From a virus: a stretch of 35,494 bases of DNA. The stretch spans positions 1-35,494 of the IMG/VR virus record IMGVR_UViG_3300036859_000403. One strand, 5' to 3'. Made by a program: the position numbers and the translations under genes. Below, in pieces: positions 2,051 through 35,428 of this stretch (position 1 is its first letter; each line of letters opens with the position of its first letter). The notes below the pieces were generated by a model. That model worked only from the letters and a program-made list of their open reading frames with translations, searched no databases and was not told the DNA's origin.

Positions 2051-2206
2051 GTGCGTGACATCGCTGCAGCGATCATGGAGGCCGCCGGGTTCGCGGCGAT
2101 CGCGGCCGGCGTCTGGCTGCTCGCTGGGTTCGCGGGCGCGGTCATCGTGGCTGGCGCGGCGCTGATCGTGCTCGCTGTCTACGTCGATAGGGGCGCTGAC
2201 GCGTGA
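2051..2206 (+). CDS. Small two-segment membrane protein
   Basis: A 51-residue protein starting at GTG one base after the terminase stop and ending in a GTGA overlap with the portal gene. Almost the whole chain is hydrophobic: AAGFAAIAAGVWLLAGFAGA followed directly by VIVAGAALIVLAVYV, suggesting one or two membrane helices. It is part of the packaging operon by spacing. Small membrane proteins at this position are common in actinophages but their role is unknown, and I assign none. Confidence 0.7.
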   Translation: MRDIAAAIMEAAGFAAIAAGVWLLAGFAGAVIVAGAALIVLAVYVDRGADA

Positions 2207-3786
2207 CGGTTCTCGGAGCGTTGCTGCGGCGCCCTGCTGTCCGCGCGGTCAAGGACGAGGACGTGTGGGGCCGGTGGGCGCGCGGCGACGACGCCCCCGC
2301 TGGCGTGACGCCGGCTGGTGTGCGCGTCGACCGCACGTCGGCGTTGCAACTGTCGGCGGTGTGGGCGTGCGTGTCGCTGATCTCGGAGAGCATTTCGATG
2401 CTGCCCTTGGACACGTTCTTCCGCCAGAACGGGGCGCGCCACCCGTTCCGCCCGCGGCCGGCTTGGCTGCTCGAGCCAAACCCGGATCAGGCCCGCCACC
2501 AGTGGGTGCAGCAGCAGCTGCTCTCCCTGCTGCTGGATGGGACGGCGTACGTGTTCACGGTGCGCGACGACCGGGGGGACATTCTCGAGGCGTGGAACGT
2601 GCCGTCGTGGAACGTCCGCCCGAAACGCGACCTCGGCCAGGTCGTGTACGAGGTGACCGACCCGGAGCGCGGCCCGCTCACCCTGAACCGGGCGCAGATG
2701 TTTCACGTCCCTGGGATGTCGTGGCCCGGGGAGCTGCGCGGCATGGCCCCGTTGGAGGCGGCGCGTCACATGCTCGGCGCTGGCCTCGCGGCGCAGGAGT
2801 TCGCGGAGCGCTACTACGGGCAGGGGATGCACCAGTCGGGTGTCGTGGAGGTGCCCGGCGACCTCACCCAGGAGCAGGCCAAAGACCTCAAGGGCGATTT
2901 TCAGCGGATGGCGGGCGGGCTGCGCAAGGCGCACCTGCCAGCGGTTTTGACTGGTGGCGCGCAGTGGAAGCCGTCGATCTGCACGCCGGAGCAGGCGCAG
3001 TTCCTGCAGTCGCGCGCGTTCAGCGTCTCAGAGATCGCCCGGTTCTTCCGGGTGCCGCCGCACCTGATCGGCGACATGGAGAAGTCCACCAGCTGGGGGA
3101 CGGGGATCGAGCAGCAGGGCATCGGGTTCGTGACGTACACGCTGGGCCCGTGGCTCGAGCGGCTCGAGCAGGCGTACACCCGGCACATGCTGTTATTGGG
3201 CCCGGGCTCACGGGCGTTCGCGAAGTTCAACGTCAACGGGCTGCTGCGCGGCGACTTCAAGACCCGCAACGAGGGGTACGCGATCGGCCGCAACTGGGGG
3301 TGGCTGAACGCCGACGACGTCCGGGCGCTCGAGGACATGCCGCCGTTGCCGGACGGGCAGGGCCAGGAGTACCTGGTGCCGTTGAACATGCGGCCCGCCG
3401 ACCAGCCGCCGCAGCCCCCAACACCGCCGACGCCCGAACTGTCCGATCCGGCGGACTCGTGGGAGACGCGTCAGCCGGCGCCCACGATCAACGTCGATGC
3501 GCGCACGACCGTCGAGCCGCAGACGATCAACGTCGACGCTCGCACCAACGTCGACGAGCTCGCCGCGACCGTCAAGCCACCCGACGTTCACGTCGACGCG
3601 CGCACCGAGATCGCCGAGGGCGCCGTACAGGTGCAGCCGCCCGACGTGCACGTCGACGCGCGGACCGAGATCGCGCAGGGCGCGATCGTCTCCAACACGC
3701 CCGTCCTCGTCGAGGCGCCCAAGAAGCAGACGCGGCAGGTCGAGCGCGACGCGGCAGGTCGCATCATCAGAGTGGTCGACGAATGA
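2203..3786 (+). CDS. Portal protein (HK97 family) with repeat tail
   Basis: A 527-residue portal protein, the ring through which DNA enters and leaves the capsid. Typical HK97-portal features are SAVWACVSLISESIS near residue 50, the WNVPSW region, a PLEAARHM segment, and SVSEIARFFRVPPHLIGD followed by an EQQGIGFVTYTLGPW segment. The last 110 residues differ: a proline-rich linker, then four VDART copies, two of them in near-identical 20-residue units with the sequence HVDARTEIA. This repeat tail is not part of the core portal fold. The gene starts at GTG in a 4-base overlap with the upstream small membrane gene. Confidence 0.95.
   Translation: MTVLGALLRRPAVRAVKDEDVWGRWARGDDAPAGVTPAGVRVDRTSALQLSAVWACVSLISESISMLPLDTFFRQNGARHPFRPRPAWLLEPNPDQARHQWVQQQLLSLLLDGTAYVFTVRDDRGDILEAWNVPSWNVRPKRDLGQVVYEVTDPERGPLTLNRAQMFHVPGMSWPGELRGMAPLEAARHMLGAGLAAQEFAERYYGQGMHQSGVVEVPGDLTQEQAKDLKGDFQRMAGGLRKAHLPAVLTGGAQWKPSICTPEQAQFLQSRAFSVSEIARFFRVPPHLIGDMEKSTSWGTGIEQQGIGFVTYTLGPWLERLEQAYTRHMLLLGPGSRAFAKFNVNGLLRGDFKTRNEGYAIGRNWGWLNADDVRALEDMPPLPDGQGQEYLVPLNMRPADQPPQPPTPPTPELSDPADSWETRQPAPTINVDARTTVEPQTINVDARTNVDELAATVKPPDVHVDARTEIAEGAVQVQPPDVHVDARTEIAQGAIVSNTPVLVEAPKKQTRQVERDAAGRIIRVVDE
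3478..3710 (+). repeat. In-frame VDART repeats in the portal C terminus
   Basis: Four copies of a GTCGA[TC]GC[GT]CGCAC-like unit begin near 3487, 3529, 3589 and 3649. The last two are about 60 bp apart and share nearly all bases over about 45 bp, including the following ACCGAGATCGC. They encode (I/H)VDART repeats with short acidic or threonine-rich spacers. The regular 60-bp period suggests a recent in-frame duplication. Confidence 0.85.
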
Positions 3787-7677: not shown

Positions 7678-7890
7678 GTGCCCGTACATCGCATTCGACA
7701 CACCAGCAGTGATCCTGTCCCCGACCTGGCGGCTGCGGTGCAGGCGGTCGAGAGCGCCGGTGAGAGCATCGTGCAGGTCGTGCCGTGGGCGAACGGCTGG
7801 CTGCTCGTCACGTCCGCCAGCGAGCTCGCCGCTGCCCGCAAACCTGCGTCACAGGCCAACCTTGAGCGGCGGGCCCGTAAGGCGAGCTGA
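7678..7890 (+). CDS. Hypothetical 70-residue protein coupled to glycosyltransferase
   Basis: This protein starts at GTG after GAGAGGA at 7664-7670 and ends in a one-base TGATG overlap with the glycosyltransferase/methyltransferase gene, so the two are translationally coupled. It has a compact alpha/beta pattern (VPDLAAAVQAVESAG, then IVQVVPWANGWLLVTS) and a basic tail. I do not recognise the family. Its coupling suggests it may assist the downstream enzyme or be a small head protein. Confidence 0.65.
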   Translation: MPVHRIRHTSSDPVPDLAAAVQAVESAGESIVQVVPWANGWLLVTSASELAAARKPASQANLERRARKAS

Positions 7891-9698
7891 TGAAGATCCT
7901 GTGGCACAGCAATGCCAGCTGGGCGAACACCGGCTACGGCAACCAGACCAGCCTTTTCACGCCCCGCATCCGCGACCTCGGCCACGACGTCGCCCTGTCG
8001 GCGTACTGGGGGCTGCAGGGCGCCCCGATCGACTGGGACGGCATGAAGGTCTACCCGTCCGACGACCGGTGGGGGAACCGGCTGCTGCCCGCCTACGCCC
8101 GCGACCACGGCCAAGGCAAGCAGGACGACTGCGTGATCATCACGCTCATGGACGTGTGGGTGCTCACCTCGCCGACGCTCGCCGAGCTGCGCATGGCGTC
8201 GTGGGTCCCGGTCGACCACGACCCGGCGCCGCCGCGCGTCATCGACTTCTTCGAGCGCACCGGCGCCCGGCCGATCGCCATGTCGCGGTTCGGCGAGGAG
8301 AAGCTGCGCGAACAAAGGCTCGACCCGCTTTACGTGCCGCACGGCGTCGACACGAGGGTGCTGCGACCACGACGCACCAGCGGACAGGTCCGGGAGCTGA
8401 TGGGGATCCCTGGGGACGCGTTCGTCGTCGGGATGGTGGCGGCGAACAAGGGGCTCAACCCGCCGCGCAAGGCGTTCCCCCAGGTGTTCCAGGCGTTCGC
8501 GGAGCTACGCCGCGAACATGATGACGCGTACCTGTACCTGCACACCGAGCTTTCGGGCGCTCACGACGGCATGAACCTCGGCGCCCTAGCGGCGGCGTGC
8601 GGTATCCCGACGGACCGGATCAAGACCACGCCGCCGTGGCGGTATGAGATGGGGGTCAGCCAGGAGGACCTGTCGCACCTGTACAGCGCGATGGACGTCC
8701 TCGCGAACCCGTCGTACGGTGAGGGGTTCGGCGTGCCGATCGTGGAGGCGTTGGCGTGCGGCGTCCCGGTGATCGTCACGGACTGCTCGGCGATGACCGA
8801 GCTGTGCGGCGCCGGGTGGCTCGTCGACGGCGACCGGTGGTACGACGCGACGCAGGGCGCGTTCTTCAAATGCCCATCGGTCGCGGACGTCCTGGACGCG
8901 ATGCGCCAGGCGTATGACAGGCGGGGCGACGAGACGCTGCGTGAGAAGGCGCGTGCGTTCGCGCTCGCCTACGACGCCGACGTCGTCACCGAGATCTACT
9001 GGAAGCCGGCGCTCGAGGCGCTCGAGGAGCAGACGCCGCGGCCCGCGAGAAGGATGCTGGTCGACGAGCCGTGGCTGACCAGGTACCTGCCCCAGCGTGG
9101 CCGCGTCGCCCTGGACGTCGGCGCGAACGTCGGCAACGTGACCGAGCATCTGCTCGATGGGTTCGACGAGGTGCACGCGTTCGAGCCGCACCCCGAGGCG
9201 TTCCGTCAACTGGAGGAGCGGGTCGGCAAGCGCGCGGTCACGCACGACGTGGCGGTCGGCGCGCACGTCGGCGACCTGACGCTCAAGCTCTACGACGCGC
9301 ACGAGCACACCAGCGCGTTCGATGACGACGAGCTCGACACGCTCACCCGCGGCGAGCCGCGCGGCGAGATCACCGTCCCGCTCGTGACGCTCGACTCGCT
9401 CCGCTTCGACCAGAAACCCGTCGACTTCCTGAAGGTGGACACGGAGGGCTATGAGTACAGCGTCCTGCTGGGCGCCGGCGCGACGCTGGCGACGAACATG
9501 CCGACCGTGCTCGTCGAGGTCCACCGGGCGCACAACGGCGCGCTGTGCGAGGAGCTGCTGCGCGAGCATGGCTACGACGTCGAGAAGATCCCGCATCCGC
9601 ACGCGGGGGTGCCCGACGGCCACCACTGGCTGCACGCCACGGCGCCCGTCGCGGCCGAGGCGCAGGCCGAGATGGTCGGAGCGCTGGCCAATGAATGA
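7890..9698 (+). CDS. Glycosyltransferase-FkbM methyltransferase fusion
   Basis: A 602-residue two-domain enzyme. Residues 1 to about 385 look like a GT4-type (GT-B fold) glycosyltransferase: SNASWANTGYGNQT at the start, VPHGVDT near 150, and the family signature EGFGVPIVEALACGVPVI near 278-295. Residues about 395-590 are an FkbM-type methyltransferase with the SAM-binding LDVGANVGNVTE near 406, HAFEPHPEAF, and FLKVDTEGYE near 513. Such enzymes add a sugar and then O-methylate it. Sitting between capsid and connector genes, it probably modifies a virion protein glycan; the target is inferred. The next gene starts in an 8-base overlap. Confidence 0.9.
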   Translation: MKILWHSNASWANTGYGNQTSLFTPRIRDLGHDVALSAYWGLQGAPIDWDGMKVYPSDDRWGNRLLPAYARDHGQGKQDDCVIITLMDVWVLTSPTLAELRMASWVPVDHDPAPPRVIDFFERTGARPIAMSRFGEEKLREQRLDPLYVPHGVDTRVLRPRRTSGQVRELMGIPGDAFVVGMVAANKGLNPPRKAFPQVFQAFAELRREHDDAYLYLHTELSGAHDGMNLGALAAACGIPTDRIKTTPPWRYEMGVSQEDLSHLYSAMDVLANPSYGEGFGVPIVEALACGVPVIVTDCSAMTELCGAGWLVDGDRWYDATQGAFFKCPSVADVLDAMRQAYDRRGDETLREKARAFALAYDADVVTEIYWKPALEALEEQTPRPARRMLVDEPWLTRYLPQRGRVALDVGANVGNVTEHLLDGFDEVHAFEPHPEAFRQLEERVGKRAVTHDVAVGAHVGDLTLKLYDAHEHTSAFDDDELDTLTRGEPRGEITVPLVTLDSLRFDQKPVDFLKVDTEGYEYSVLLGAGATLATNMPTVLVEVHRAHNGALCEELLREHGYDVEKIPHPHAGVPDGHHWLHATAPVAAEAQAEMVGALANE

Positions 9699-23152: not shown

Positions 23153-23392
23153 GTGGCAGTGATTACAACGCAGTCAGTGCATATAGGGAACCGCCTTCGA
23201 GAGCTCCGCCTGGCCCACGGCCTCAAGCTCTACGAGGTCTCAGCTCTCGTCGGCCGCAGCGAAACGGTCATCGGTCGCTACGAGAGGGGGCAGACACGGG
23301 TACCTGATGACGCCAAGCTGGCGCTCGCGCGCCACTACGGCGTGAGCGTCGATCACCTGATGGGCTGGGACCGCGAGGAGATCGTTGCGTGA
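23153..23392 (+). CDS. Cro-like XRE-family regulator
   Basis: A 79-residue protein that is essentially one XRE helix-turn-helix domain: IGNRLRELRLAHGLKLYEVS, ALVGRSETVIGRYERGQTRV, then DAKLALARHYGVSVDHLMGW. It is transcribed away from the reverse repressor and starts the forward early operon, matching a Cro role. The GTG at 23153 lacks a clear ribosome site, so leaderless translation is possible; a second GTG at 23159 is an alternative. It overlaps the methyltransferase gene by GTGA. Confidence 0.85.
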   Translation: MAVITTQSVHIGNRLRELRLAHGLKLYEVSALVGRSETVIGRYERGQTRVPDDAKLALARHYGVSVDHLMGWDREEIVA

Positions 23393-24354
23393 GCGCGGCG
23401 GCGCTCGTTCCTGCCGCTGAGGCGCGCTCGGTCGTTGCGCTCGACGAGGCGAGGGCCGCCATCGCCGTCGCGCGGCAGACTGGCGACGCGGGGGCGCTTC
23501 GCGAGTGGCGTGACCGCGCCGCCGCCGTCCAGCACTACGCCCGGATGCGCGACGACGGCAGGCACGCGGCGAACGAGGCGGGGGAAATCAAGGTTCGCGC
23601 TGAACGGGCGCTGGGGCAGCTCGACGCCGAAGGACGGCAGCACGGCGGGAGTCGCAAGCAAGATGGGGGTGCCCCCATCTTGACCGTAGAGGGCCACACT
23701 CGCGCCGCGTGGCGCAAGCTGGGCGCGCTCGACGAACCCGAGTTCGAAGCGCTCGTCGAGCGGGCGCGCGAGGACCAGAACGCGGGTGTGAGCACCGCGA
23801 GTCTCGTGCGGCTCGTGCGCGCCGCGGCCGTCGCTCCACCCCCGGTCACGCTCGCGCCGCTGCCCGAAGGGGCCTTCCGGGTCATCGCGGCCGATCCGCC
23901 GTGGCAGTACGACAACAAGGCGACGCGTGGCGCCGCCGAGGACCACTACTCGACTATGACGATCGAGGAACTCTGCGCCCTCGACGTCATCGACCGGGCC
24001 GCCGACGACGCGCACCTTTATCTGTGGACGACGAATGGGTTCCTGCGCGAATCGTTCGACGTCCTCGACGCCTGGGGGTTCTCCTACAAGACGTGCCTGA
24101 CGTGGGTGAAGCCGCAGATGGGCCTGGGGAACTACTTCCGCTCGTCCACCGAGCACGTCCTGTTCGGTGTCCGGGGGAAGCTGGCGACCGCCGACCGGGC
24201 GCTGATGAACTGGTTCCAGGCACCGCGCGGACGCCACTCTAAGAAGCCCGACAGCTTCTACGACCTCGTGGAACGCGCGAGCCCGGGACCGTACCTCGAA
24301 CTGTTCGCGCGCCGTCGCAGGTTCGGCTGGGAGCACTGGGGCGTCGAGGCGTGA
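23389..24354 (+). CDS. MT-A70-type DNA adenine methyltransferase
   Basis: A 321-residue protein in two parts. Residues 1-110 are a helical domain (YARMRDDGRHAANEAGEIKV, AERALGQLDAEGR) often fused to phage MT-A70 enzymes. Residues about 160-320 are an MT-A70-type methyltransferase, with the catalytic DPPW motif in VIAADPPWQYDNKA near 164-177, DAHLYLWTTNGFL, TCLTWVKPQMGLGNYFRSST, and PGPYLELFARRRRFGWEHWG. It probably methylates adenine in phage DNA to resist restriction, or in regulation. It is coupled to the next nuclease gene by GTGA. Confidence 0.92.
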   Translation: MSAAALVPAAEARSVVALDEARAAIAVARQTGDAGALREWRDRAAAVQHYARMRDDGRHAANEAGEIKVRAERALGQLDAEGRQHGGSRKQDGGAPILTVEGHTRAAWRKLGALDEPEFEALVERAREDQNAGVSTASLVRLVRAAAVAPPPVTLAPLPEGAFRVIAADPPWQYDNKATRGAAEDHYSTMTIEELCALDVIDRAADDAHLYLWTTNGFLRESFDVLDAWGFSYKTCLTWVKPQMGLGNYFRSSTEHVLFGVRGKLATADRALMNWFQAPRGRHSKKPDSFYDLVERASPGPYLELFARRRRFGWEHWGVEA

Positions 24355-28962: not shown

Positions 28963-29294
28963 ATGGGTACGCGGTCCAGGACGCCTGGGTGAAGTACGCC
29001 CAGGAGCAGCGCGACAAGGACGGACGCCGACAGCAGGAGGCGTCCAGGCAGTGGGACGCCCGGTGGCACTCAGCCGGCGACTGGTGCGCCGAGCACCTGC
29101 CTGACCTCATCGACCGGACGACGGGCGTGTCGTGCGGGTTCGCCGTGGGCGCCGCGCTACGCCTGCGCAGCGAGCTCGGGCGCACGCCGACGGCGGATGA
29201 GGTGCGCCGCCGTCGCCGGGAGTGGATGCGCCGCCTCGACCTGGATCCGCGCAGCAACGTCCGGCCCGCGATGACCGCGGAACAGCTGCCGTGA
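28959..29294 (+). CDS. Hypothetical 111-residue replication-region protein
   Basis: Starts at GTG after GGGAGGAGG (28946-28954) in a 4-base overlap with the initiator gene. It is highly charged and helical (WVKYAQEQRDKDGRRQQEAS, VGAALRLRSELGRTPTADEV, then RRRREWMRRLDLDP). A helicase-loader role would fit the position, but no Walker motif is present, so none is claimed. Confidence 0.65.
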   Translation: MNGYAVQDAWVKYAQEQRDKDGRRQQEASRQWDARWHSAGDWCAEHLPDLIDRTTGVSCGFAVGAALRLRSELGRTPTADEVRRRRREWMRRLDLDPRSNVRPAMTAEQLP

Positions 29295-29440
29295 CGCGGG
29301 AACCACGGCTGCTACGGCGCGCGCAGGATCGCCTCTGGCGGTCCACCATCTTCGTGCTGCTCTGGCAGCTTCGCCGTGTCCATGAAGATCGGCGGGTACT
29401 CAAGCTGCGCGTCCGAGAGCTGGAAGGCCGACGCTCGTGA
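29291..29440 (+). CDS. Hypothetical 49-residue basic protein
   Basis: Starts at GTG in a GTGA overlap. It is very basic and helical (LLRRAQDRLWRSTIFVLLWQ then LRRVHEDRRVLKLRVRELEG). The hydrophobic centre could be a membrane helix or a coiled-coil core. It is the last gene of the forward early chain before the reverse gene. No family is recognised. Confidence 0.55.
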   Translation: MTREPRLLRRAQDRLWRSTIFVLLWQLRRVHEDRRVLKLRVRELEGRRS

Positions 29441-29463
29441 TGCGGGAGACCGGGGAGCGAGTC

Positions 29464-29907
29464 CTATGCGGCGATCTGGAGCTGCTGGGCTTGAACGACC
29501 TCGAACGCTGCGCGTCCGCGCGGCACCTCGTCGATCATGCCGATGAAGGTGTAGCTGCCCTCGGACGGGAACTCGGGACTTGCCCCGATTGCCATGACCA
29601 GGCGTTGGCTCGCGCCAGGTTTCAGGTCGGCAGGCCGGCCGGTGTTCATGTTGATCCGCAACGTCTCGCCGATGGCCTGTCCGTCGCTGGTCACGAGCTC
29701 GAAGCCGAACACGAATTTCCGGTTGGTCAGGCTATAGGGGACGCTGATGCCGGCGGCGATGTAGAACGGCTCGGCGGGATGGCCGGGGAGCTCGGGGACC
29801 GCGATGCGGTTCCAGGCGCCACCGAGCATGTAGAGCTTGCCGCCGATCGCTTCTGCGCGGTCGGCGAGGATGAGGAAATCGAAGTCGATGCGGTCGGGGT
29901 CTTGCAT
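29464..29907 (-). CDS. DUF6941-like protein, reverse
   Basis: A 147-residue beta-rich protein beginning MQDPDRIDFDFLILADRAEA, with IGGKLYMLGGAWNRIAVPEL, FVFGFELVTSDGQAIGETLR and GMIDEVPRGRAAFEVVQAQ. This matches my memory of the DUF6941 family found in actinobacteria, with no known function. It is read on the reverse strand with GGGAGG at about 29914-29919. Its promoter and a palindromic operator lie between it and the BrnT-like gene. An accessory, lysogen-expressed role is possible but inferred. Confidence 0.75.
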   Translation of the reverse strand: MQDPDRIDFDFLILADRAEAIGGKLYMLGGAWNRIAVPELPGHPAEPFYIAAGISVPYSLTNRKFVFGFELVTSDGQAIGETLRINMNTGRPADLKPGASQRLVMAIGASPEFPSEGSYTFIGMIDEVPRGRAAFEVVQAQQLQIAA

Positions 29908-29922
29908 ACCTGCCTCCCAGTG

Positions 29923-29966
29923 GTTTACAATGTAAACACTGTAGGACGGGGAGGGGGGCAAGTCAA
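29923..29966 (-). promoter_or_regulatory. Promoter and 15-bp palindrome between DUF6941 and BrnT-like genes
   Basis: On the reverse strand TTGACT (plus 29961-29966) and TACAGT (plus 29938-29943) are 17 bases apart. Directly downstream, the predicted start site falls in GTTTACA-A-TGTAAAC (29923-29937), a perfect dyad and a strong operator candidate. The forward BrnT-like gene begins at 29967, so one operator could serve both directions. Confidence 0.7.
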
Positions 29967-30254
29967 GTGGGCGACATCTACTTTCTCGACTGGGACGACG
30001 ACAACGAGTCCCACCTCGCCCGCCATACCATCACCCAGAGCGAGGTCTTCCAAGTCCTCGCCAACCGCTACCTCACCCTCCCTAACCCCAAGGGTCGCCC
30101 GGACACACGGCGCCTCATCGGCACCACGCACGGCGGGCGCATCATCACCATCGTCGTCGCGCCTGTCGCGCACGACCCCGCGACTGTCCGGCCGATCACT
30201 GGATGGGACACCACCACGGACGAACTCAAGCTCTACGATCGTTACTGCCGATAG
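29967..30254 (+). CDS. BrnT-like toxin
   Basis: A 95-residue protein starting at GTG. The pattern FLDWDDDNESHLARHTITQS, EVFQVLANRYLTLPNPKGRP and RLIGTTHGGRIITIVVAPV matches the BrnT ribonuclease toxin family (W-[DE]-N-H-[AR]HG-V, then a GR-[LI]-[ILV] strand). BrnT inhibits translation and is neutralised by BrnA. The second gene of the pair follows 12 bases later, in the family's usual toxin-first order. A GGGGAGGGGGG run lies upstream. It may act in plasmid-like maintenance or in phage defence. Confidence 0.75.
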   Translation: MGDIYFLDWDDDNESHLARHTITQSEVFQVLANRYLTLPNPKGRPDTRRLIGTTHGGRIITIVVAPVAHDPATVRPITGWDTTTDELKLYDRYCR

Positions 30255-30266
30255 AAGGGACCAGCC

Positions 30267-30527
30267 ATGCCAGACAACGACGACATCCAGGTGCACGAGG
30301 GGCGCCGCGTCGGCGCCGTCGTCTCGCTGCGCCTCAAGCCCGACGAGGCCGAGCTGCTCTCGGCCCTTGCCGCCCGCGACGGACGCACGCTCAGCGAAAC
30401 CCTACGCCTCGCGCTGCATAGCTTTGCCCGTACGCCACGCCGCGAAGCCGATCTCGTCGTCGGCGGTCCGACGATCAGCTACACCCGCGGCGGCGAATCC
30501 GCCGACCAGACCGTCTACACCTGGTAG
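30267..30527 (+). CDS. RHH-type antitoxin, partner of BrnT-like toxin
   Basis: An 86-residue protein with AVVSLRLKPDEAELLSALAA then DGRTLSETLRLALHSFART, a ribbon-helix-helix pattern. RHH antitoxins bind operator DNA and sequester the toxin. It follows the BrnT-like gene by 12 bases. The C terminus (ADLVVGGPTISYTRGG) is unlike the usual BrnA and may be the toxin-binding part. BrnA identity is not certain; the operon arrangement supports it. The GTTTACA palindrome upstream may be its operator. Confidence 0.7.
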   Translation: MPDNDDIQVHEGRRVGAVVSLRLKPDEAELLSALAARDGRTLSETLRLALHSFARTPRREADLVVGGPTISYTRGGESADQTVYTW

Positions 30528-30532
30528 GCGCC

Positions 30533-30558
30533 GAGAGGCCCGCCGGGGCGAGCCTCTC
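30533..30558 (+). terminator. Hairpin after the toxin-antitoxin pair
   Basis: GAGAGGC (30533-30539) and GCCTCTC (30552-30558) form a 7-bp stem around a GC-rich loop, five bases after the antitoxin stop. No T-run follows. It may be a terminator or a transcript end signal. Confidence 0.45.
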
Positions 30559-30593
30559 ATCGGTGGCAGGCACAGCGCGCGGGAGCGCTGCCT

Positions 30594-30752
30594 GTGACGC
30601 GGCATCGCGAGAAGCTGCTGGAGAAGCTGCGCGCGCTCCGGCTCGAGGATCCCGAGCGGGGCCACATAGACGCCGACCAGGCGCTGCTGGACTACATCGA
30701 CGACCCCGAGGTCACCGAAGCGTTCGAGGCGATCGGGAAGTGGTACGCGTGA
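30594..30752 (+). CDS. Hypothetical 52-residue protein
   Basis: Starts at GTG (TRHREKLLEKLRALRLEDPE, then ADQALLDYIDDPEVTEAFEA). It is helical and charged. It overlaps the next gene by GTGA. No ribosome site stands out. No family recognised. Confidence 0.5.
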   Translation: MTRHREKLLEKLRALRLEDPERGHIDADQALLDYIDDPEVTEAFEAIGKWYA

Positions 30753-30937
30753 CTGACCCTAGGCGGGATCAGCAGAAGACAACGGACGCGGAGCTTCGGG
30801 AGGCCGAGGACGCCGTGGAGGAACTGTGCGAGGACGCGCTGCGGGCGTTGACGGGTCGGAACTTCATCAAGGCGGAGTCGCTACTGAGCGACGCGATCAC
30901 GCAGCTTCGCTTCCTCAATAGGGCTAGCTATGAGTGA
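30749..30937 (+). CDS. Hypothetical 62-residue protein
   Basis: Starts at GTG in a 4-base overlap with the preceding gene and overlaps the methyltransferase by eight bases. Acidic and helical (DAELREAEDAVEELCEDALR, IKAESLLSDAITQLRFLNRA). The heptad-like pattern suggests a coiled-coil or helical bundle. No family recognised. Confidence 0.55.
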   Translation: MTDPRRDQQKTTDAELREAEDAVEELCEDALRALTGRNFIKAESLLSDAITQLRFLNRASYE

Positions 30938-31742
30938 GCGGGACGAGCAGCAGCCAGTCCCGGTCCCCTACCGTGGCGAGGAAATAGGTCGCCTTCGGCA
31001 GCCAGACTGCCCGGAGTGCGGAGCCCCTAGCGGATACCCGGCGGCGGGTCCGTGCGCGACGCACGCGCGAGCGATGACTCAGCAGGACGAGCGGCAGCTA
31101 CCCGAGCCGTACTACCAGGACGGCTACGTGACGCTCTACCACGGCGATGCGCGGGAGCTGCTGCCCCTCTTCGCCGACGACAGCATGGCCGCTGTCGTCT
31201 CCGATCCGCCCTACGGGATCAACAAGGCGGGCTGGGATGAGGTGTTCCCGATGTGGTGGTTTGAGGACGCCGCACGGATTGCCCCCCGGCTCGGGCTCAT
31301 GCCGGGGATCTGGAACATCTGCTGGTGCCCGCAGACCGTTGGTCGGCTCGGCTATCGCTGGATGCTCTCGGCGCATCTGACCAACGGCATGACGCGCGGC
31401 GCAATCGGCTTCGGCAACTGGATTCCCTACCTGATCTACAGCGTTGAGGGCGAGAAGCTGCACCGGCTCGACACCGACTGCCGCCGGTTCGTGGTCGGCA
31501 CAGAGCACAAGCCCGAGCACCCGTCGCCCAAGCCACTGAACGTGATGCGCTGGTTCGTAGATCGCACCACCGAGCGCGATGGGCGACCCGTCATGGACCC
31601 GTTCGCAGGCTCGGGCACGACGCTCCGCGCCGCGAAAGATCTGGGCATCTCGGCGGTGGGGATTGAACTAGACGAGCGGTACTGCTCGCTCATCGCAGAG
31701 CGATGCGCGCAGGAGATCTTCGACCTGGGGGAAGTTGCATGA
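30930..31742 (+). CDS. DNA methyltransferase (DPPY-type)
   Basis: A 270-residue protein with motif IV DPPYGINKAGWDEVF near residues 93-107 and motif I DPFAGSGTTLRAAKDLGISA near 230-249, the order of beta-class enzymes that make N6-methyladenine or N4-methylcytosine. The target-recognition region lies between. The first 48 residues add a zinc-like CPECGAPSG and CATHA segment; an inner ATG at 31077 would omit it. It is the second DNA methyltransferase in the window. No matching restriction enzyme adjoins it. Confidence 0.9.
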   Translation: MSERDEQQPVPVPYRGEEIGRLRQPDCPECGAPSGYPAAGPCATHARAMTQQDERQLPEPYYQDGYVTLYHGDARELLPLFADDSMAAVVSDPPYGINKAGWDEVFPMWWFEDAARIAPRLGLMPGIWNICWCPQTVGRLGYRWMLSAHLTNGMTRGAIGFGNWIPYLIYSVEGEKLHRLDTDCRRFVVGTEHKPEHPSPKPLNVMRWFVDRTTERDGRPVMDPFAGSGTTLRAAKDLGISAVGIELDERYCSLIAERCAQEIFDLGEVA

Positions 31743-34539: not shown

Positions 34540-34739
34540 CCGGCATGGAGGGCTACCAGCGCGCATGTCGTCTGGCGGTAAGCCTGGACATGACACCGCG
34601 CTGGCGCCCACGCAAGCGTCGACGCCTCGCGTTCGAGCTTGCGCAGGCCGCTCACATCGCTGACGCGGACTACGGCGTACCGCCCGGGACGCTGGCAGCG
34701 ATTCTGGCTTCCCAGAAGCGGACGGAGTCCAAGCCATGA
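34536..34739 (+). CDS. Hypothetical 67-residue basic protein
   Basis: Overlaps both neighbours by ATGA. A helical pattern with YQRACRLAVSLDMTPRWRPR and RLAFELAQAAHIADADYGVP, followed by LAAILASQKRTE. Basic and possibly DNA-binding; no family recognised. Confidence 0.55.
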   Translation: MTGMEGYQRACRLAVSLDMTPRWRPRKRRRLAFELAQAAHIADADYGVPPGTLAAILASQKRTESKP

Positions 34740-35428
34740 CCGAACAGTTCGAGCGCCGTACAGCAATCTTCGAACCCCAGCGCGCCGACGACCTCAAGCC
34801 CGATGGCGAGCAGTGGATCGGCCGGACGCTGGAATGGGAAGCCTGCTGGATCATCGAGGACGGCCCCTACGAAGGCCAGTGGGCGTGGGCACCCGTCCTG
34901 GGCGACGATGACGAGCGCCCGCCGTTCGCTTGGGTGCCAGCTTGCGATTTGCGGACAACGGGGCAGGTCAGCGACTGCTGCGGCGCCGCCACCTTCACCC
35001 ACACCGGCGACGAGGGCACCAGCCACTACGTCTGCGGCGCCTGCGACGAGCCGTGCGACCGGACGTCCCGGGCAGAGTGGGACCGGCAGACGGACGCCTA
35101 CGTCGAAGCCTTGACTACCAGCGACCGTGACGAGCGCCACCAGACCATCGAACGTCAGGGCGCGATGATCCTCCACTTGCACATGGAACTCGACCGCCTG
35201 CGCGAGCAGGTCGTGGCGCTCACCAAGAGCCAAGAGGTCATGCTGGAACGCTGGCGCGTCACCCACGAGGACCGCACCACGTTCAAGCAAGCGCTGCGCG
35301 AATGCGCCCGGCTCTCAGGCGCAGACCTGTCAGGCGGCTTCCCAACCCACCCCCCCATCCACGAGTACGCCGTACAACAGGTCGGTCAGCTCCGAGAGGA
35401 CTACGACGAGGCGTGTAGGCAGCCATGA
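34736..35428 (+). CDS. Zinc-ribbon and coiled-coil hypothetical protein
   Basis: A 230-residue protein. Residues about 25-75 are tryptophan-rich (EWEACWIIEDGPYEGQWAWA). Residues about 79-106 hold a zinc-ribbon-like CCGAATFTHTGDEGTSHYVC with CGACDEPC. Residues 130-175 are helical (LHLHMELDRLREQVVALTKS). It is coupled to both neighbours by ATGA. The role is unknown. Confidence 0.65.
   Translation: MTEQFERRTAIFEPQRADDLKPDGEQWIGRTLEWEACWIIEDGPYEGQWAWAPVLGDDDERPPFAWVPACDLRTTGQVSDCCGAATFTHTGDEGTSHYVCGACDEPCDRTSRAEWDRQTDAYVEALTTSDRDERHQTIERQGAMILHLHMELDRLREQVVALTKSQEVMLERWRVTHEDRTTFKQALRECARLSGADLSGGFPTHPPIHEYAVQQVGQLREDYDEACRQP

Follow-up and report, generated by a model that had tools for sequence, protein, structure and literature searches.

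A DUF6941 gene lies back-to-back with genes for a putative BrnT-like toxin and a ribbon-helix-helix (RHH) protein in a 35,494-b IMG/VR virus record. This raises the question of whether DUF6941 is a third component of a toxin–antitoxin (TA) system or a neighbour sharing its promoter. The whole record was analysed and is referred to as the window; positions are those of the window unless the contig L262 is named (Table 1). Pfam matches and coordinates confirmed the layout given in the preliminary description. The ATG chosen as the DUF6941 start is preceded by a Shine–Dalgarno-like GGGAGG, and TTG 29961 is a less likely start, being upstream of the predicted transcription start.

Table 1. Island features in the window and the corresponding genes of L262, a second virus-classified contig
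Sequence	Feature	Position	Strand	Remarks
Window	DUF6941 gene	29464..29907	-	147 aa, best start ATG 29907, stop at 29464
Window	Putative BrnT-like toxin gene	29967..30254	+	95 aa, GTG start, PF04365 below cut-off
Window	Putative RHH antitoxin/repressor gene	30267..30527	+	86 aa, PF01402 above cut-off
Window	Promoter-like TTGACT-N17-TACAGT for DUF6941	29938..29966	-	shuffle p 0.003
Window	Palindrome GTTTACA-A-TGTAAAC, presumed RHH operator	29923..29937	.	counterparts in most other islands
Window	Hairpin 3' of RHH gene, doubtful terminator	30533..30558	.	no better than shuffles
L262	DUF6941 gene	2953-3438	+	
L262	BrnT-like gene	2593-2886	-	
L262	RHH gene	2175-2579	-	

The DUF6941 promoter and the palindrome were both present where they had been claimed, and both exceeded chance. 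The promoter was the sole promoter-like site in 29000-31200 (0.3 expected), and the p value in Table 1 refers to the best promoter in the DUF6941 direction of the divergent gap. Even when up to 3 mismatches were allowed, the palindrome matched at a single site in the 35,494 b (0.08 expected), and its occurrence within the gap had a shuffle p of 0.01. It abuts the DUF6941 –10 element directly downstream and contains TACAAT (29926-29931), a possible –10 element for the BrnT arm.

The proposed surroundings of the island fared less well. The hairpin has 12-nt arms that are 92% complementary, but it is no more stable than shuffled sequences (z –0.29) and has no T run. It is therefore not a convincing terminator and does not support an island boundary. 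Placement at the end of the early operon was not borne out, since the RHH gene is followed on its own strand by two further genes, one a short phage gene (30594-30752, phrog_31687) and the other encoding a DNA methyltransferase (30930-31742). The latter (N6_N4_Mtase, E 2e-16) is one of two DNA methyltransferase genes in the window, the other being of the MT-A70 type (23389-24354, E 4.5e-23). Elsewhere in the window, an ORF of 602 aa located with the structural genes (7890-9698) looks, by eye from its translation, like a glycosyltransferase fused with an FkbM-type methyltransferase, and 34736-35428 matched the Acb2/Tad1 hairpin domain weakly, below the cut-off (E 0.011). A defence or superinfection role for the island found no support, as PADLOC gave no match for ten island proteins.

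The window DUF6941 protein belongs to its Pfam family (PF22091, E 8.8e-15, 55.6 bits against a cut-off of 27). All 11 members of our DUF6941 alignment (A3) matched PF22091, with E values up to 0.01. The DUF6941 profile matched Ig-like domains weakly, with E 0.004 at best, which hints that the fold may be an Ig-like beta-sandwich. No paper found in the literature searched names DUF6941.

The window RHH protein scored above the RHH_1 cut-off (22.1 against 20.5 bits); the RHH matches from NCBIfam were all below threshold. The window RHH protein is without the acidic N-terminal stretch found in most of its relatives. Most island antitoxins matched RHH_1, NikA-like or DUF6290 families; a single one of 11 matched BrnA (PF14384, E 0.0066), so the island antitoxins do not class with that family.

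The BrnT-like protein is divergent. The window protein fell below the PF04365 cut-off (E 2.2e-4, 21.9 bits against 34.5) and cannot be assigned to BrnT by that measure; weak matches were obtained for 6 of 9 island members (best E 1.3e-4). Its nearest relatives are other DUF6941-linked BrnT-like proteins. The island profile matched the solved toxins 7vd7 (E 6e-6) and 9sdc (E 0.003), and this distant similarity suggests a putative RNase activity. Toxicity is uncertain because of the sub-threshold match and because the window protein reads ITGW in place of the classic ISAR/ITAR motif, whose arginine is thereby replaced. Both observations would fit a BrnT-like protein that is no longer toxic and serves purely as a co-repressor, making the island a regulatory switch instead of a TA module. 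So would the copy in G331 (L110, 1103-1490), which is split across two frames and represents either a decayed toxin or an assembly error. We regard this as distinctly unlikely, since the BrnT-like proteins mostly retain the W-D and His positions known from classic BrnT, and the toxin-first order is kept, with an RHH homologue directly after the BrnT-like gene in every island (all 15 linked loci, the window included).

Whether the three genes belong together was addressed through their relatives. Close-relative searches with the window proteins returned nothing in IMG/VR, phages, plasmids or genome_contigs; relatives surfaced only through Pfam and whole-genome searches, followed by alignments. 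The bacterial genomes were reached from capsid matches through prophages, and the sample was one even draw of 396 genomes from the phylum of a MAG titled Acidimicrobiia bacterium. Genes in the fetched loci were called with our own scripts, and profiles built from the first islands were used to find further linked loci. Pattern searches with alignments A2 and A3 were dropped because the alignments were too diverse.

Relatives of the window BrnT-like protein were found in 15 of the 396 genomes. Independent searches for DUF6941 and BrnT had several places in common, where the two genes are neighbours, and DUF6941 was the neighbour in all four genomes that matched the window BrnT best (G104, G334, G282 and G044). 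In total, 13 places in 11 of the 396 genomes have BrnT-like and RHH genes next to DUF6941, compared with about 0.02 adjacencies expected by chance from the BrnT and DUF6941 gene counts at an assumed 2,700 genes per genome. Two loci were left out of the counts: L157, where the BrnT-like gene is fragmentary, and L091, whose HicA/HicB-like genes were recognized by eye only, with no Pfam match. The window genes thus stay together in relatives, including the second virus-classified contig. Classic BrnT genes (about 100 PF04365 places) were never beside DUF6941 when the listings were compared by eye. Among the BrnT-like matches in 199 genomes from the phylum of an Acidobacteria MAG, none had DUF6941 nearby, and DUF6941 was found in 0 of 388 genomes from the phylum of a Steroidobacteraceae MAG.

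The second contig, L262 (38,542 b, IMG/VR), was found by a DUF6941 alignment alone, made from the window protein and two relatives. Its three proteins are 35-40% identical to their window counterparts, and the BrnT–RHH gap is 12-13 nt in both. The window capsid is absent from L262. Its viral status rests on IMG/VR, since ten of its larger ORFs gave no PHROG match.

Three gene orders occur among the 15 loci. Eleven are divergent, namely both viral islands and those of G104, G334, G282, G044 (three), G076, G204 and G331. One has the order DUF6941–BrnT–RHH (G175, L117), and three have BrnT–RHH–DUF6941 (G078, G090 and G285; L151, L154 and L159). In the four co-directional loci, starts and stops overlap or lie a few nt apart. 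The distances of the three proteins are correlated among ten islands (Mantel r 0.78-0.87, p 0.0002), in keeping with inheritance as a single unit.

Inspection of the divergent gaps showed an inverted repeat at the DUF6941 –10 element in most islands, with sequences alike within subclades. The dyads are TGTGTTACAGTGTAACACA in G331, TGTATACTAGAGTATACA in G334 and GTATACATTGTTTACACGTGTATAC in L262. Those of G334 and G282 are of TGTATACTAG-GTATAC types, and those of G204 and G331 of GTGTTACAGTGTAACAC types. G104 and two of the G044 islands (G044a/b) carry GGTCATACC repeats, which are imperfect in G044a/b. The L262 half-sites are GTATACA/GTTTACA, compared with GTTTACA in the window. The gap of G076 contained no good dyad. 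Promoters in the DUF6941 direction at the dyad reached a shuffle p of about 0.05 or less in six islands.

Since the genes are kept together and most islands have a dyad at the common divergent promoter, a single RHH repressor for both arms is the best reading. DUF6941 looks like a real third part of the TA system, because the three genes recur in a second virus-classified contig and at 13 bacterial places. We consider it fairly probable that the island is a tripartite variant of a BrnT/BrnA-type type II TA module, with DUF6941 as its third component and RHH repressing both arms. The model builds on the observed gene content, the linkage in three orders, the dyads at the divergent promoter and the co-divergence. 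RHH, alone or with the BrnT-like protein, would bind the palindrome between the two divergent promoters and repress the BrnT–RHH operon and DUF6941 alike. A fall in antitoxin would then induce both arms, raising DUF6941 and the TA pair at the same time. DUF6941 might modulate the toxin or the antitoxin, or act as a co-induced effector.

DUF6941 itself is not TA-specific, as it is widespread beside metabolic genes. PF22091 is present in 87 of the 396 genomes, and the island members occupy 4-5 places on a tree of 95 DUF6941 members. Most of the other genes have metabolic neighbours (e.g., kbl/tdh, pgsA/gcvH and MaoC-like), and a TA neighbour is absent for most DUF6941 genes. In L107, L111, L115, L118, L145 and others, DUF6941 adjoins a kbl-like gene, and in some loci it precedes a tdh-like gene. 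Two small genes with no Pfam match lie upstream of DUF6941 in the same direction in L148 (1408-2126) and L161 (1049-1833), possibly as another two-gene unit linked to it.

Given how common DUF6941 is outside TA loci, the linkage may only reflect its often landing beside other genes. RHH would then autoregulate the BrnT-like pair, with DUF6941 as co-regulated cargo that shares the promoter and has no functional tie; operators are, moreover, routinely common to divergent genes. We find this rather unlikely, as the linkage recurs in three gene orders, among them co-directional operons with nearly overlapping genes, in the two virus-classified contigs, which are unlike each other, and in separate places of the DUF6941 tree.

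The reach of DUF6941 could also be wider than the tripartite BrnT-type module. HicA/HicB-like genes lie directly upstream of DUF6941, in the same direction, in L169 (HicB–HicA–DUF6941, HicA E 1e-17) and L143 (HicA–HicB-like–DUF6941, HicA E 1.8e-6). A nucleotidyltransferase (NTP_transf_2) gene of L169 (2223-2570) is convergent with the HicB–HicA–DUF6941 operon. From the 61 HicA places counted in 80 genomes, we estimate about 0.1 such adjacencies by chance; as HicA is fairly frequent, the link is suggestive only. It favours DUF6941 as an extra neutraliser or sensor for RNase-type TA modules generally, BrnT-like and HicAB pairs alike. With two HicAB cases and most DUF6941 genes lacking a TA neighbour, we hold this as a tentative idea. 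We are similarly doubtful of a reading in which unrelated RNase TA pairs (BrnT-like/RHH and HicAB) of bacterial genomes and phages have acquired DUF6941, divergently or within an operon, as a portable third part that acts as a sensor or additional neutraliser.

In three-component TA systems, e.g., the omega–epsilon–zeta or TA–chaperone loci, a third gene is linked to the TA pair. The island resembles them in this linkage, repeated at the 13 places in 11 genomes and in two virus-classified records, but the annotation of DUF6941 relates it to none of their third components, and the commonest island layout is divergent. The Brucella abortus BrnT/BrnA complex binds and represses its own promoter (PMC5086665), which makes RHH autoregulation through an operator at both divergent promoters likely by analogy; the layout fits. 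As in BrnT/BrnA, the BrnT-like protein is encoded before a putative DNA-binding antitoxin, with a dyad in the promoter. The island differs in its sub-threshold BrnT-like protein, in an antitoxin that is RHH_1/NikA-like instead of PF14384 BrnA in most members, and in a third gene sharing the promoter region or operon. RelS–RelI of Mycobacterium tuberculosis (PDB 9SDC) shares the BrnT-like RNase fold and the toxin-first order, and its chain is the one matched by the island profile. According to the study of this system (PMC13284704), RelI belongs to no known antitoxin superfamily, and an upstream inverted repeat was not found. Unlike the island, RelS–RelI has two genes only.

For a family with no assigned function, the repeated TA linkage provides a testable idea of the role of some DUF6941 members. 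The complete three-gene unit, together with its presumed switch, is carried by two virus-classified contigs and is small enough to assay.
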